Below are positions 1 to 62,685 of a stretch of DNA of 64,000 bases, piece by piece. The position numbers and the translations under genes were made by a program. The stretch comes from Dasania sp. GY-MA-18 (lineage in GTDB: Bacteria > Pseudomonadota > Gammaproteobacteria > Pseudomonadales > Dasaniaceae). Below the pieces are notes generated by a model. That model saw nothing but the letters and a program-made list of their open reading frames with translations, searched no databases and had not been told where the DNA came from. Numbering within the stretch: position 1 is the stretch's first letter; each line of letters starts with the position of its first letter. The stretch covers positions 1 to 64,000 of the forward strand of contig NZ_JANHAP010000011.1 in assembly GCF_024734385.1 (NCBI RefSeq), in the 5' to 3' direction.

Positions 1-126
1 AGGCAAGAGGCAAGAGGCAAGAGGCAAGAGGCAAGAGGCAAGAGGCAAGAGGCAAGAGGCAAGAGGCAAGAGGCAAGAGGCAAGAGGCAAGAGGCAAGAG
101 GCAAGAGGCAAGAGGCAAGAGGCAAG
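1..126. repeat. Perfect heptamer tandem array, AGGCAAG x18
   Basis: The 7-bp unit AGGCAAG (CTTGCCT on the other strand) is repeated about 18 times without error, and the array runs off the left edge, so its full length is unknown. The unit matches one heptad of the degenerate CTTNNNN blocks found elsewhere, for example CTTGCCT at 18610-18616. No gene overlaps it. The unit length and lack of decay suggest recent slippage or expansion. Confidence 0.97.
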
Positions 127-307
127 AAATTTTTGAACTTGGGCTGCCCCCAAGTCAAGTCCTTTAATCCTTTTCTTAAAACTTACCGCTTGTAGCTTGC
201 AGCTCAGCCCTACAGGCTGACAATCCCCAAGGAAATATGTAACAATCCGCGCCTAGGATGTTAGGGCCCGCCTGACAAACAATAATAAATAGGTAGTACG
301 CGCTTAC
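127..307. other. Intergenic region before the Wzi-like gene, with a CTTNNNN heptad block at 175-205
   Basis: An inverted repeat (ACTTGGG ... CCCAAGT) lies just right of the tandem array. From 175 the heptads CTTAAAA, CTTACCG, CTTGTAG and CTTGCAG follow in exact 7-bp phase and lead into a small AGCC/GGCT hairpin. No gene is seen. The remaining about 100 bp before the start codon at 308 should hold the promoter, but no clear -35/-10 pair was identified. Confidence 0.75.
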
Positions 308-1803: not shown

Positions 1804-1846
1804 CTCTCTAGTTAACAGCCGCTAGAGACTAGGAACTAGCGACTAT
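1804..1846. repeat. CTAG-heptad repeat element (copy a)
   Basis: CTAG or CAG recurs in exact 7-bp phase (units end at 1811, 1818, 1825, 1832 and 1839): CTCTCTAG, TTAACAG, CCGCTAG, AGACTAG, GAACTAG, CGACTAT. Left and right ends match the polarity of the other copies (TCTCTAG on the left, CTAGCGACT on the right). It starts 11 bp after the Wzi-like stop codon. Confidence 0.85.
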
Positions 1847-4387: not shown

Positions 4388-4403
4388 GCTCACCTTGTGA
4401 GCA

Positions 4404-4452
4404 GCTGTAAGCTGTAAGCTGTAAGCTGTAAGCTGTAAGCTGTAAGCTGTAA
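4404..4452. repeat. Perfect heptamer tandem array, GCTGTAA x7
   Basis: Seven exact GCTGTAA units (CTTACAG heptads on the opposite strand) lie 17 bp after the stop of the Wza-like gene. The unit equals the CTTACAG heptad of the degenerate CTTNNNN blocks at 7227, 18397 and 28317. Confidence 0.97.
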
Positions 4453-7150: not shown

Positions 7151-7219
7151 GTGATTTTTCTCCTAAAAATTAAGCTACAAAGATTATTACCTTCTTCCTT
7201 ATACAGGATCAGCAATTTT

Positions 7220-7250
7220 CTTGTCGCTTACAGCTTTAAGCTTGCAGCTG
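7220..7250. repeat. CTTNNNN heptad block
   Basis: CTTGTCG, CTTACAG, CTTTAAG and CTTGCAG follow in exact 7-bp phase, then CTGAAGC. It has the same four-heptad-plus-CTG structure as the blocks at 18390, 18610, 28310 and 58346. It lies just downstream of the SLC13 permease gene. The hairpin that usually follows is weak here (GAAG/CTTC only). Confidence 0.8.
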
Positions 7251-7270
7251 AAGCGCGTGTAATGGCCTTC

Positions 7271-9048: not shown

Positions 9049-10473
9049 CTATTTTAATAATTGGCTAAGGTCTTTGGCATCCCAATGTGGAAAGTGCTTT
9101 CTGACTAAGGCGTTAAGCTCTAGCTCAAAGGCAGAGTAGTTCGTTTCGCCCTGTGCCTCACCGGCTTGCTCTAACACCTGCTCAACCATACCCGCACCTA
9201 CCGTGATATTGCTTAAACGATCAATAACGATAAAAGCACCGGTTGCACGATTTTGAGCGTATTTATCCACTGCCACCGCTTGCGATAATTGCACATCAAC
9301 CATGGCAATATCATTCAGCTCTAAGCTTTCTGCAGCATCATGTGCTTGGGTGTTTACATCAATTTTGTAATTAACATTATCAATGACACCTGTGGTCACC
9401 TTACTGGCAAATTTGAATAAATACTCTTTGCCCGGTGACATAGCCTTTTCTGACATCCACACCAAATGCGTTTTTAAGCAGTTACTAGTCTGTAGCTCGT
9501 CGTCGGCTTTAACGATGACATCACCGCGGCTAATATCAATTTCGTCTTCTAAAGTAAGAGTAACGGCCTGGCCTATAAAGGCCTCATCCAGTGAGCCATC
9601 ATAAGTCACTATATCTTTAACTTTGCTGGTTTTACCTGAGGGCAGTGCTTTTATGGCTTCGCCCTTTTTAACTACGCCTGAAGCTATAGTGCCGCAAAAA
9701 CCACGAAAATCTAGATGCGGGCGATTGACGTACTGCACAGGAAAACGGAAGTCGGTGAGGTTTAGATCTTCAGCGATGGCAACAGTATCTAAAATTTCCA
9801 TCAAGGTTTGGCCGGTATACCAGGGCGAGCGCTCGCTGCGATCAACGACGTTGTCGCCATCCAGTGCTGACATGGGTACAAACTGTATGTCTTGCTCGTT
9901 TAAATCTTTAGCAAACTCTATATAGTCGGCTTTAATTTTCTCAAAGGTTTCTTCTGAGAAATCCAGCAAATCCATTTTGTTAACCGCAACGACTATGTGC
10001 TTAATGCCCAATAATGAGGCTATATAACTGTGGCGGCGTGTTTGTGTTTGTACGCCGTAGCGGGCATCAATCAAAATAATAGCCAAGTCACAGGTAGAGG
10101 CACCGGTTACCATGTTGCGGGTATACTGCTCATGCCCTGGGGTATCGGCAATAATAAATTTGCGCTTATCGGTAGAAAAATAACGGTAGGCTACATCTAT
10201 AGTAATACCTTGCTCGCGCTCGGCTTGTAAGCCATCTACCAATAACGCTAAGTCGACTTTTTCGCCCGTGGTGCCATGCTTTTGAGTGTCGCTGGTAATG
10301 GCCGCCATTTGATCTTCATAGATCATTTTAGAATCGTGCAACAAGCGACCTATTAAAGTGCTTTTACCATCATCCACGCTGCCGCAGGTTAAAAAGCGCA
10401 GCATTTCTTTGTTTTCATGTTGCTTAAGGTAAGCGTTGATGTCTTGTTCTATTAAATCTGATTGGTGGGACAT
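9049..10473 (-). CDS. cysN: Sulfate adenylyltransferase subunit 1 (GTPase)
   Basis: This 474-residue protein is the GTP-hydrolysing subunit that drives formation of adenosine phosphosulfate from ATP and sulfate by CysD. GTPase motifs are clear: P-loop 'GSVDDGKST' near residue 31, '[12 protein letters not shown]' near 110 and 'NKMD' near 165, followed by EF-Tu-like beta-barrel domains. No APS-kinase (CysC) domain is fused, since the protein ends soon after the barrels. In most relatives cysN follows cysD directly. Here a four-helix-bundle gene and repeats separate the two, so translational coupling has been lost although the strand is the same. Confidence 0.96.
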
Positions 10474-10912
10474 AGTCAGTCTCTAGTTTTCAGTTCCTAG
10501 TCGCTAGCCATAGCTAGCTTATTCATTAAGCCGCCTAACATTGCAGCTATCTCAATTATTTCTACACGCCATCTGTCGCTATTATCAGCATCGATTAGCC
10601 CTATATTTTTACCAATCAATACCTGTGTAGATAGCTCAGCCGCCGAGCCTTTAGCAATACCTAAAAAGTGTATGGTCTCTTTATCTGAGCGCCGCTCTAC
10701 CCCTTCCGCAATATTGCTAGGGATGGATAAACCCGAGCGAGTAATTTGATCTTTAAATCCATAGTCTTTGCAGCTGGCAAAATATCTATAGATCTCAACA
10801 CTCAGCCCAACACTCCTTTGCCATACCAGCAGCCTTTCATGCTTCACTAGCGCACTCCCTGCGTAGTTCATTTGTTTTTGCTAGTCTCTAGCGACTAAAA
10901 ACTAGCGACTTA
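10474..10912. mobile_element. Candidate heptad-bounded element carrying a four-helix-bundle gene
   Basis: Both flanks of the 10497-10871 gene are CTAG-heptad arrays. The left flank (10474-10507) reads AGTCAG, TCTCTAG, TTTTCAG, TTCCTAG, TCGCTAG. The right flank (10881-10912) reads CTAG, TCTCTAG, CGACTAA, AAACTAG, CGACTTA. The outer ends (AGTCTCTAG left, CTAGCGACT right) match those of the gene-free copies at 1804, 18170, 41632 and 48774. The unit sits between cysD and cysN, normally adjacent genes. Mobility is inferred from this layout. There is no recognised transposase and no clear target-site duplication. Confidence 0.45.
10497..10871 (-). CDS. Four-helix-bundle protein (23S rRNA intervening-sequence/S23 family)
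   Basis: This 124-residue protein belongs to the four-helix-bundle family first noted in intervening sequences of 23S rRNA genes. Diagnostic stretches are 'LLVWQRSVGLSVEIYRYF' (helix 1), 'QITRSGLSIPSNIAEGVERR' (helix 2) and 'FLGIAKGSAAELSTQVLIG' (helix 3). The family shares its fold with the Avd accessory protein of diversity-generating retroelements and probably binds nucleic acid, but its function is unknown. It lies between cysD and cysN without any relation to sulfur metabolism. Its last codons (M-A-S-D-stop) are encoded within the left CTAG-heptad array, and its start is 10 bp from the right array. No reverse transcriptase is seen in the window. Confidence 0.9.
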   Translation of the reverse strand: MNYAGSALVKHERLLVWQRSVGLSVEIYRYFASCKDYGFKDQITRSGLSIPSNIAEGVERRSDKETIHFLGIAKGSAAELSTQVLIGKNIGLIDADNSDRWRVEIIEIAAMLGGLMNKLAMASD

Positions 10913-10928
10913 TTTCCAAATCTTCGAT

Positions 10929-11840
10929 TTAGAAATACCCCTCCTGCTTTTTCTTTTCCATAGAGCCCGAGCTGTCGCTGTCGATTACGCGACCTTGGCG
11001 CTCTGAGGTTTTGGTGAGCAGCATTTCTTGGATGATGTCGGTCATGGTGGTGGCCTCTGACTCTACTGCACCGGTTAGGGGGTAGCAGCCCAGGGTTCTA
11101 AAACGCACCATTTTTTCTTCTATGACTTCGCCCTCTTCTATGGGCATGCGCTCATCGTCCACCATAATTAACACGCCATCGCGCTCTACAACCGGGCGTT
11201 TGGCGGCAAAGTACAAGGGTACAATGGGGATGTTTTCTAGGTGTATATACTGCCATATATCTAATTCGGTCCAGTTAGACAGTGGGAATACACGTATGCT
11301 CTCGCCTTTGTCGACCTTGCCGTTGTAAATATCCCACAGCTCTGGACGCTGGCTTTTGGGGTCCCAGCGGTGGTTTTTGTCGCGGAAGGAGTAAACGCGC
11401 TCTTTGGCACGGGACTTTTCTTCATCGCGGCGCGCGCCACCAAAGGCGGCATCAAAGCCGTATTTGTCCAGCGCTTGCTTTAAGCCCTGGGTTTTCATGA
11501 TGTCGGTATGCTTGGCACTACCGTGGGTAAAAGGGCCTACCCCCATATCCACACCTTCTTGGTTGATATGTACCAGCAAGTCCCAGCCTAGGTCTTTAAT
11601 GCGCTGGTCGCGAAACTCAATCATTTCTTTGAATTTCCAGGTGGTATCAACGTGCATTAGGGGGAAGGGCGGCTTGCCGGGGTGGAAGGCTTTCATCGCC
11701 AGGTGCATCATAACGGCCGAATCTTTACCCACCGAGTAGAGCATGACAGGGTTATCGAATTCCGCAGCCACCTCACGAATAATGTGTATGCTCTCCGCTT
11801 CTAGTTGCTTCAAGTGGGTTAAATTATATTTACTGCTCAT
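10929..11840 (-). CDS. cysD: Sulfate adenylyltransferase subunit 2
   Basis: CysD catalyses the adenylyl transfer that makes APS from sulfate and ATP, as the PP-loop ATP-pyrophosphatase partner of CysN. The 303-residue product shows the PP-loop '[18 protein letters not shown]' near residues 34-51, the block '[17 protein letters not shown]' and the hallmark C-terminus 'KKQEGYF'. I chose the ATG at 11840, which begins '[17 protein letters not shown]' and has AAGG 6-7 bp upstream, over an in-frame ATG 24 bp further out. It is the first gene of the cysD - four-helix-bundle - cysN - permease cluster. Confidence 0.95.
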
Positions 11841-11997
11841 CACGAACCTTTCTGTTGAGCGCAAAAATGCGCATTCACTTCCGAAAAGGGCAGTATTATA
11901 AGGGGGTTAGCCACAGCTTACTAGTTGAAATAGAGCCAAGCTATGATCGCTTGTTTATAAGCTTATGCTCTATTAGCGCACAGCCTTTAGCAGCTTC

Positions 11998-17498: not shown

Positions 17499-18179
17499 GT
17501 GAGCAGCGACCCCAGCAGCAACCCCAATACCCCGTCTAACAACAAACCCGGCAACAAAGCGCTTAATTTTCGCGTGGCCGAGTTTTTTACCAGCGCCCCA
17601 AAACTGGCCGACTGCCCCCCCGACATAGGGGTAGAGGTAGCCTTTGCGGGCCGCTCTAATGCCGGCAAATCCAGCTCTATCAATACCCTTACCGAAAATA
17701 AAAAGATGGCCCGCATCAGTAAAACGCCCGGGCGCACGCAGTTAATCAACTTTTTTAAATTAAGCGAAACACAAAGGCTGGTAGACCTACCGGGCTATGG
17801 CTTTGCCAAAGTACCGCTGGCCGTTAAAGAGAAATGGCAGCGCCACCTGGAGCAATACCTGCGCGAGCGCCAGTCATTAAAAGGCCTAATCCTATTAATG
17901 GACAGCCGCCACCCGCTGCAAGACTTTGACCGCATGATGATCAGCTGGGCGCAAAGCTGCCAGATGCCTGTACATATATTGCTCACCAAAAGCGACAAAC
18001 TTAAAAACGGCCCCGCCAAGGCCACACTGTTAAAAGTACGCAAAGAGTTTGCAGAAGATCAGCTAATCTCCGCCCAGCTGTTCTCCTCCCTCAAGCGCAC
18101 CGGCCTGCCAGAGCTTAGAGCGAAGTTGGGGGAGTGGCTGGGCCCTGCCCAGCCACAGCCGATAGACGCCAGTCTCTAG
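17499..18179 (+). CDS. engB: Ribosome biogenesis GTPase EngB (YihA/YsxC)
   Basis: This 226-residue essential-type GTPase assists late assembly of the 50S ribosomal subunit. G1 is 'GRSNAGKSS' (near residue 50), G3 lies in '[12 protein letters not shown]', and G4 is 'TKSDKL'. The start is GTG at 17499. A poorly conserved, proline- and asparagine-rich N-terminal 25 residues precede the '[17 protein letters not shown]' block. The stop codon TAG and the last codons fall inside a CTAG-heptad repeat, giving the C-terminus D-A-S-L. In Pseudomonas engB lies next to polA. Here polA is 40 kb away. Confidence 0.94.
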
Positions 18180-18226
18180 CTCCTAGCCTTAGAGCCCGTA
18201 GTGTTTGCTCTAGCGACTAGCGACTT
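18170..18226. repeat. CTAG-heptad repeat element (copy d)
   Basis: The element starts CAGTCTCTAG, CTCCTAG and ends CTAG, CGACTAG, CGACTTT, with 7-bp phase at each end and a less regular middle. It covers the engB stop codon. Ends and polarity match copies at 1804, 10474-10912, 41632 and 48774. Confidence 0.75.
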
Positions 18227-18229
18227 TCC

Positions 18230-18334
18230 AAAAAAAACCCAGCGACGAAAACCGTGCTGGGTATAAGTAGTGTCTAAACATAGGGGATCAAGACACTGTG
18301 GAGACTTGGATGGGGAATGCATTGCATCCGCATG
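18230..18334 (-). ncRNA. Candidate small RNA 1 of a tandem pair
   Basis: On the minus strand this unit runs about 105 nt from a sigmaE-like promoter to a terminator (CCCAGC/GCTGGG hairpin at 18238-18261, then eight T). Just before the terminator is a second hairpin (18269-18297): 7-bp arms AGTGTCT and AGACACT around a loop containing ATCCCCTA. The neighbouring unit has the same loop motif but different stem bases, so the stem pairing is kept while its sequence is not. No open reading frame of note is present. The C-rich loop could pair with Shine-Dalgarno sequences (inference). Confidence 0.65.
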
Positions 18335-41631: not shown

Positions 41632-41706
41632 CAGTCTCTAGTCTCTAGTCTCTAGTCTCTAGTCTCTAGTCTCTAAAAGATTTTACTAGCGACTGTTAAC
41701 TAGCGG
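41632..41706. repeat. CTAG-heptad repeat element (copy e) with TCTCTAG array
   Basis: CAG then five perfect TCTCTAG units (to 41669) and a final TCTCTAA, a short AT spacer, then CTAGCGACT and CTAGCGG. The array starts at the base after the spoT stop codon, and its right end encodes the last codons of the convergent VOC gene. Confidence 0.9.
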
Positions 41707-42058
41707 CTTCTTCTTTCGACCAAACCCCAAACTCATTACCACTAGGCTCTATAAACTGAAACCGCCTGCCGCCGGGGAAGGGAAATATTTCTTTGCTGAT
41801 TTTACCGCCTGCGGCTTTAACTTTTTGGTAGCTTTTTTCTAAATCGTAGCTGTACAGTACTATCAGTGCACCGCCATTTTCAGCGCTGGATTTTTTATCT
41901 GCTTGGTAAAATCCGCCATTTAAACCGGCATTTGTGAAAGCGGTATAAGATTCGCCAAAATCAGTAAACACCCAATTAAAGGCTTTGGTAAAAAATTGCT
42001 TGGTTGCCTTTATATCGTGGGCGGCATATTCCACGTAGTTAATTTTTTCATGCTCCAT
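41696..42058 (-). CDS. VOC-family (glyoxalase/dioxygenase-like) protein
   Basis: This 120-residue protein has a vicinal-oxygen-chelate fold: N-terminal 'INYVEYAAHDIKATKQFF', an 'ALIVLYSYDLEKSYQKVKAAGG' repeat half, and the C-terminal 'FQFIEPSGNEFGVWS' with its metal-ligand glutamate. The usual N-terminal histidine ligand is replaced, so metal binding is uncertain. The substrate is unknown. The start at 42058 ('MEHEKINYVEY') fits the family better than one 33 bp upstream. Its C-terminus (A-A-S-stop) lies within repeat sequence. Confidence 0.82.
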   Translation of the reverse strand: MEHEKINYVEYAAHDIKATKQFFTKAFNWVFTDFGESYTAFTNAGLNGGFYQADKKSSAENGGALIVLYSYDLEKSYQKVKAAGGKISKEIFPFPGGRRFQFIEPSGNEFGVWSKEEAAS

Positions 42059-48773: not shown

Positions 48774-48908
48774 CAGTCTCTAGTCTCTAGTCTCTAGTCT
48801 CTAGTCTCTAGTCTCTAAAAAATAATCCCGCTGTTATAAAAAATGCCTAGCACTTTGCTGGGCATTTTTGTTTTTACTAGAGCCTAGCGACTAATCACTA
48901 GCGACTTT
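48774..48908. repeat. CTAG-heptad repeat element (copy f) with internal terminator
   Basis: CAG and five TCTCTAG units plus TCTCTAA begin right after the HDOD stop codon. After a spacer with a hairpin, CTAG, AGCCTAG, CGACTAA, TCACTAG and CGACTTT continue in 7-bp phase from 48877. The right part encodes the C-terminal V-A-S-D-stop of the convergent YkgJ-type gene. Confidence 0.9.
48842..48875 (+). terminator. Rho-independent terminator inside repeat copy f
   Basis: AATGCC-AGCA and TGCT-GGCATT arms with a 3-nt loop are followed by a T-rich tract. It ends the plus-strand HDOD gene and, with A residues on the left, may also serve the minus strand. Confidence 0.85.
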
Positions 48909-51613: not shown

Positions 51614-51745
51614 TAAACATACTCTTATTTATTTATGATGCATCAATTTTATTGCAGCTTCTAACGATTGAAACTGATGTCACCCCCCAAGACACTCGCT
51701 ACGCTCATGGCGCAGAGACTTATATTTCAGCGATTCTGGCCCTTT

Positions 51746-51773
51746 GATCGTTGATCGTTGATCGTTGATCGTT
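51746..51773. repeat. Heptamer array GATCGTT x4
   Basis: Four perfect 7-bp units. It shares the 7-bp period of the other arrays in the window but not their CTAG or CTT motifs. Confidence 0.9.
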
Positions 51774-51831
51774 GATTTTATGGGCCCATAATTCCCCAAC
51801 CTACGTTACTTCACCACCGGTTATTGTGTCG

Positions 51832-62291: not shown

Positions 62292-62685
62292 GTCATTCCG
62301 GGCCACGACCCGGAATCCAAACCAAACCCCGCAACCCCATGGATCCCAAATCAAGTTTGGGATGACAAGCGGCCTCGCTCAAATCTAAACCCAACGTCAT
62401 TCCGGGCCACGACCCGGAATCCAAACCAGACCCTGCAAAGCCATGGATCCCAAATCAAGTTTGGGATGACGAGCGGCTTCGCTAAAATCCAAACCCAAGG
62501 TCATTCCGGGCCACGACCCGGAATCCAAACCAGACCCCGCAAAGCCATGGATCCCAAATCAAGTTTGGGATGACGAGCGGCATCGCTAAAATCCAAACCC
62601 AAGGTCATTCCGGGCCACGACCCGGAATCCAAACCAAACCCCGCAAACCCATGGATCCCAAATCAAGTTTGGGATCACGAGATAG
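62292..62685. repeat. 104-bp tandem repeat of paired palindromes, 3.8 copies
   Basis: Units begin at 62292, 62396, 62500 and 62604, period exactly 104 bp. Each holds two palindromes in opposite orientation: GTCATTCCGGGCC...CCCGGAATCCA and TGGATCCCAAA...TTTGGGATGAC. The copies are nearly identical. The single REP-like element at 4460 is related. Nothing codes here. Confidence 0.95.

Follow-up and report, generated by a model that had tools for sequence, protein, structure and literature searches.

Proteins of the S23/IVP family have been known for decades as components of rRNA intervening sequences (IVSs), with no function ever assigned to them, and the family is not known to have any catalytic activity. 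The results described here join this puzzle to a second one, the cause of the heptanucleotide repeats of Xanthomonas, Nostoc and Beggiatoaceae. In the IVS of Coxiella burnetii 23S rRNA, one ORF of the same protein family lies within terminal inverted repeats and the transcript forms a hairpin; the excerpted account describes a 28-bp stem and no heptads, and gives the S23 structure as a homopentameric torus (PMC4990558). Heptanucleotide arrays, with units of TAACTGA in Beggiatoaceae (PMC4679880) and GGGAATC in Xanthomonas and Nostoc (PMC4692102), are intergenic, lie near a start codon or the 5′ neighbouring ORF and were read as regulatory or G-quadruplex sites; those of Xanthomonas mostly have four units, and many form convergent pairs (PMC4692102). 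S23 and four-helix terms are absent from the texts of both papers (PMC4679880, PMC4692102), and X. campestris encodes an S23 protein, XCC0516 (2gsc). Our literature search, which covered subscription journals and preprints thinly, found no report linking heptad arrays to S23/IVP, and a prior report may exist.

The element analysed here lies in the window, by which we mean the whole 64,000-nucleotide stretch of DNA from Dasania sp. GY-MA-18. As in the IVS, an S23 ORF is enclosed by terminal inverted repeats (10478–10507 and 10881–10910), but the element sits between the protein genes cysD and cysN rather than in 23S rRNA, its arms have a 7-nt period and it is accompanied by dozens of gene-free copies. 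It shares the 7-nt unit of the heptanucleotide arrays, the arrays being intergenic tandem 7-bp units. REP/BIME sequences with their RAYT genes are similar in combining many short gene-free inverted-pair repeats with one gene flanked by the same repeats; S23/IVP, however, is not a Y1/HUH protein. Because the gene-free copies share the ends of the gene-bearing element, they resemble MITEs beside their transposon. Our main reading, to which we assign a probability of roughly 0.6, is that this is an IVS-like selfish element with MITE-like gene-free derivatives, whose pentameric protein reads the heptad arms; the binding and the spread we infer.

An S23/IVP gene between inverted heptad arms

The unit and its neighbours comprise the following features.

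9049..10473, minus strand: cysN, downstream neighbour (ORF and translation)
10478..10507, plus strand: left arm of heptads, AG core ×5, one every 7 nt
10497..10871, minus strand: S23/IVP four-helix-bundle gene, 124 aa (PF05635 and TIGR02436, AlphaFold2, Foldseek to 2gsc)
10881..10910, minus strand: right arm of heptads, in inverted orientation, AG core ×5, one every 7 nt
10911..10937, no strand: border hairpin of the insertion, with the cysD 3′ end as one of its arms; also present in the congener (G001)
10929..11864, minus strand: cysD, upstream neighbour (ORF; query for relatives)

In profile searches, the protein matched PF05635 (E=1e-31, 109.7 bits against a cut-off of 33.8) and TIGR02436 (E=1e-32, 112.3 bits against a cut-off of 24), the S23/IVP profiles being its sole profile matches; defence and phage profile libraries gave no match. 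AlphaFold2 modelled the monomer with a pLDDT of 95, and Foldseek matched the model to the four-helix bundles XCC0516 (2gsc) and BT_0352 (2rld), each of which has five chains in its crystal structure. With both profile scores above the curated cut-offs and a four-helix-bundle fold, the unit carries a member of the S23/IVP family, as had been predicted from the sequence. No second S23/IVP gene was found in the 3.81-Mb genome.

The model also resembles Avd of DGRs (4dwl, 8ub7; TM about 0.75 by Foldseek), a likeness in the four-helix-bundle fold that favours a DGR-related retroelement, in which an Avd-like protein would act with a reverse transcriptase in trans. A working reverse-transcriptase partner, named in the original prediction for S23/Avd relatives, did not hold up: profile searches found no RVT_1 match in the window genome (G000) or in its congener, which sets this system apart from DGRs and rules the partner out for this genome, and yet arrays are numerous in both genomes and vary in copy number between them. 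Because the genome lacks a reverse transcriptase, a retroelement mechanism is not needed, and we consider one highly improbable.

The left arm (10478–10507, 30 nt) reads AGTCTCT AGTTTTC AGTTCCT AGTCGCT AG, with the stop codon of the S23/IVP gene inside one of its CTAGs, and the right arm (10881–10910, 30 nt), read inwards on the minus strand, AGTCGCT AGTTTTT AGTCGCT AGAGACT AG. In the original prediction both flanks had been read as CTAG every 7 bp; the 7-bp arrays are real, but CTAG itself recurs in steps of 7 or 14, and it is AG(T) that returns strictly every 7 nt. The window holds 7 occurrences of a CTAG-N3-CTAG-N3-CTAG chain where 0.01 would be expected. By pattern searches and sampled stretches, the same chain occurs 98 times genome-wide against 2 for a reversed control pattern, and the right-end motif, with up to 3 mismatches allowed, in 83 + 124 places against 0 + 3.

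Insertion between cysD and cysN

In 17 of 17 order relatives with a readable cysD 3′ end, cysN lies directly behind cysD, at about 0–80 bp, and there is no insert; the insert is present in the window genome and in the congener. The original prediction had placed the unit between two normally adjacent genes and proposed looking for an empty site in relatives, and both points were borne out. Because the cysD–cysN site is empty in these relatives, the S23/IVP unit is, by sequence comparison, an insertion. The empty spacers are too diverged among the relatives to define a target-site duplication. An S23/IVP element with TAGTCGA heptads on a Campylobacterales contig (L060) also lies in a cysD–cysN junction, so that this junction was hit twice, in different phyla.

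Some insertion borders have a snap-back hairpin, in which an inverted repeat of the 3′ part of the upstream gene directly precedes the arm. Such duplications were seen at 10911–10937 of the window and at L047, L048 and L049, and by eye at L061 and L068. Those with an arm of at least 10 bp are rare (3.1% versus 0.3%); the feature is striking in a few loci and serves as a lead only.

Gene-free copies and in-place turnover

The window holds the following further elements and arrays, none with an assigned strand.

1..206: AAGC/CAAG-class element; left arm (AGGCAAG)×18, right arm GCTTGTAGCTTGCAGCTC
1808..1844: gene-free CTAG-class copy, degenerate, from the end-motif search
4403..4452: AAGC-class array (AGCTGTA)×7
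7172..7254: AAGC-class element; expanded left arm (AAGCTAC)× about 10 in G001
18171..18226: gene-free CTAG-class element; common to G001
41633..41708: element of the CTAG class without a gene; (AGTCTCT)×6 as left arm, (AGTCGCT)× about 22 in G001
48775..48907: element of the CTAG class without a gene, enclosing a terminator-like hairpin; (AGTCTCT)×6 as left arm, ×12 in G001

About 30 gene-free elements of the CTAG class were listed and have a 30-nt arm consensus in common; the predicted gene-free copies with matching outer ends were recovered at 1808, 18171, 41633 and 48775. The consensus of non-expanded arms is AGTCGCT AGTnnnn AGTCTCT AGTCGCT AG, and in a profile for which only the first two cores served as anchor, own-genome arms retained AG at offsets 14, 21, 28 and 35 with frequencies of 0.79, 0.72, 0.59 and 0.21, which points to five cores in each arm. 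Unit 2 of the 4 is near random, with its neighbours conserved. Other arms consist of many perfect repeats of one unit, and several gene-free elements, such as 48775–48907, enclose a terminator-like hairpin. The elements keep to gene ends: 33 of 38 gene 3′ ends lie at most 23 nt from an arm, the median distance to the stop codon is 3 nt, and divergent gene pairs enclose 0 of 26 elements. Both the window genome and the congener contain CTAG as well as AAGC arrays, with one IVP gene apiece, which weighs against our main reading.

That gene-free copies far outnumber IVP genes, and that S23/IVP has no catalytic activity known to us, would fit a different enzyme, a transposase or recombinase, moving the heptad-ended elements with S23/IVP as passenger or regulator. 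The sole Y1 transposase of the genome, however, has flanking repeats unrelated to the heptads and was rejected as the mobiliser (a result for the Y1 family only), and the motif class follows the IVP tree, as described below; we judge another enzyme improbable. The Y1 gene itself (L288, G000:C9:532042-532371) encodes a single RAYT-like transposase flanked by AAAGGGGTCGTAACGATTATTTTT-type repeats.

Comparison with the congener gave no sign of recent movement, since 5 of 5 testable window elements are common to both genomes. Of the mobile or recombining element that had been proposed, the inserted unit with heptad-array ends thus stands, on the strength of the empty sites, whereas movement between these congeners was not seen. 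The arrays at the same five sites differ, in that copy number and unit have changed in place, as the listed differences at 7172, 41633 and 48775 illustrate. The cysDN IVP of G001 has 46% identity to the window IVP and AAGC rather than CTAG arms, and the genes flanking it have about 87% DNA identity between the two genomes. On the 46% identity and the arm class we considered independent re-insertion at cysD–cysN; sisterhood of the two IVPs was not rejected (AU p=0.45), and the G001 protein either was replaced or co-diverged fast with its arms.

Such in-place change in number and unit is also what would be expected if the arrays were simple-sequence repeats arising by polymerase slippage, in or near which S23/IVP merely lands; slippage with a 7-nt preference was proposed in literature cited by PMC4679880. 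Slippage fits less well with the inversion of the arms and with non-expanded arms ending at five cores, and we return to it with the protein comparison.

Heptad arms at S23/IVP loci of many phyla

We collected 96 S23/IVP loci from many phyla by a genome-contig scan and by family, order and phylum searches, and scored the self-similarity of their flanks at lags 3 to 21. The lag-7 score was 12 or more in 3% of control windows, which were mostly coding, in 35% of flanks on the upstream side and in 54% of those downstream, and within this range only lags 7, 14 and 21 differed from the control. An intergenic-gap control from the same loci gave 49 of 81 IVP-adjacent gaps versus 8 of 61 others (p=6e-9). 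Among held-out cyanobacterial plasmid loci, found afterwards, inverted period-7 arms were present in 11 of 12, and 21 of 24 flanks scored at least 12. Left and right arms are reverse-complementary in phase (identity 0.76 versus 0.23 out of phase), the inverted orientation beats the direct one in 31 of 34 loci, and in IVP arms of other genomes a dinucleotide chain most often runs to 5 cores upstream and 4–5 downstream. By the score used, a considerable fraction of IVP loci lacks a clear arm on at least one side.

The units at these loci are diverse (AAGCNNN, CAGTNNN, GTCNGAN, TAGGCAG, GTGAGNN, TTCGGTT and more). The prediction that CTAGNNN would be enriched beside S23 genes was therefore upheld for heptads in general but not for CTAG, which is this lineage's version and was dropped as a universal signature because other S23 genes bear other units. 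S23 elements inside 23S rRNA (L097, L111) have heptad arms too. At L075, a perfect 7-bp array lies to the left of the S23/IVP gene and an array of 15-bp units (gtccgtaagcgaagc) to its right. Three loci on cyanobacterial plasmids (L290, L294, L300) have S23/IVP inside CRISPR operons, in the orders cas6-IVP-cas4 and cmr2-IVP-cmr3; 23S rRNA IVP was listed among CRISPR-linked genes (PMC10910872), for which such insertions may account.

Arm motif and protein vary together

We assigned arms to motif classes drawn by hand and mapped these onto a phylogeny of 92 S23/IVP proteins. Arm class changes 9 times on this tree (32 labelled rows), and in 300 label shuffles the minimum was 15 and the mean 19.7, none reaching 9 or fewer. 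Protein identity and motif similarity were correlated (Mantel r=0.20, p<0.0005). GTC-class heptads, predicted before the search, occurred in 3 of 12 genomes, exactly those with GTC-class IVP arms (counts on both strands: G007 8, G291 36, G245 116; the other 9 genomes 0). The proposed link between S23 protein and arrays thus finds support in the motif on the protein tree and in the class-specific genome counts, and protein and motif covary in these comparisons. In 20-kb regions sampled at a distance from the IVP gene, strong 7-bp arrays were present in 8 of 41 from IVP+ and 0 of 48 from IVP− genomes (p=0.0014); a stricter, gap-based comparison was weaker (6 of 365 versus 1 of 412, p=0.056).

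These results bear on slippage, which does not lead one to expect that array class tracks IVP phylogeny, that GTC-class arrays are confined to genomes with GTC-class IVPs or that sampled IVP− regions lack strong 7-bp arrays. On its side, and against our main reading, is a genome of the same family (G008) with 50 CTAG-chain hits and no S23/IVP gene by profile, where the arrays are either a relic, the mark of a missed gene or the outcome of spread without IVP. Overall we regard slippage with a chance association as unlikely.

Stem or motif

The arms might instead be a mere RNA hairpin for excision by RNase III, with the protein having an unrelated role and the arms not being read. The RNA of the IVP element folds far better than shuffles (z=-5.8), as does that of 48775–48907 (z=-8.0), 23S members have the same arms and the Coxiella IVS was removed by RNase III in vitro (PMC4990558). 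Yet short gene-free elements show no such excess over shuffles (z=-0.15 for 18165–18230), and a stem accounts for neither the 7-nt period, the five cores nor the covariation of motif and protein. Nor is there compensatory pairing between arms: in 13 elements the variable positions of paired arms match at 0.42 versus 0.41 when shuffled, and flush pairing is no better than pairing shifted by 7 nt (p=0.15). Since the variable positions are at the shuffled level and flush pairing has no advantage, the motif rather than the stem seems to be under selection, and we think a hairpin alone slightly less likely still than slippage. The strong hairpins of the larger elements may nevertheless permit removal by RNase III, as in rRNA.

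A candidate mechanism

For an IVS-like selfish element with a protein that reads its arms, each arm of about 30 nt would be the candidate binding site, offering five cores of 2–4 nt at 7 nt per step. An arm with five cores and a ring with five subunits together suggest one core per subunit, such that a predicted ring of five identical subunits would take up the arm as single-stranded DNA or RNA. B-DNA turns about 240 degrees per 7-bp step. Cores spaced by 7 bp would not face the ring on a duplex, and we infer that single-stranded DNA or RNA fits better. Gene-free copies would be non-autonomous derivatives recognized in trans, and perfect arrays of 6–22 units would be arms expanded in 7-nt steps. 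The elements would be tolerated in operons and rRNA because of their position, only a few nt from stop codons, and because they can form long hairpins like that of the 23S rRNA IVS.

A broader possibility, which we hold tentatively and below even odds, is a mobile system free of transposase, integrase, relaxase and reverse transcriptase, in which the ring reads the arms and joins the inverted pair while the replication machinery copies or moves the insert, and which would be the source of many heptanucleotide repeats. For the spread itself we propose, with low confidence, that exposed single-stranded arms are held together by the ring, which would favour template switching at the replication fork, and the element would need neither a nuclease nor a reverse transcriptase of its own. 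Snap-back border duplications would fit template switching, itself a speculative step.

Inverted heptad arms, typically with four to five motif copies each, flank S23/IVP genes in most of the distant bacteria examined, which suggests that many seven-base repeats of bacterial genomes hitherto without explanation belong to the S23/IVP system. The matter comes down to one binding question, whether a five-fold ring binds five cores spaced by 7 nt; if it does, there is a mechanism for a widespread selfish element that occupies the borders of genes in operons, CRISPR operons among them, and in rRNA genes, and the likeness to Avd becomes informative on where that retroelement accessory protein came from.

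Further repeats in the window

Rfam gave no match above the gathering score over the element, and the only match in the window is an FMN riboswitch (RF00050, 53344–53495). A TTGATCG ×4.7 array at 51744–51776 represents a further heptad class with no recognized partner arm. Four copies of a 104-bp repeat beginning GTCATTCCGGG occupy 62292–62681; at the corresponding site of the congener there are different but related GTCAT repeats.
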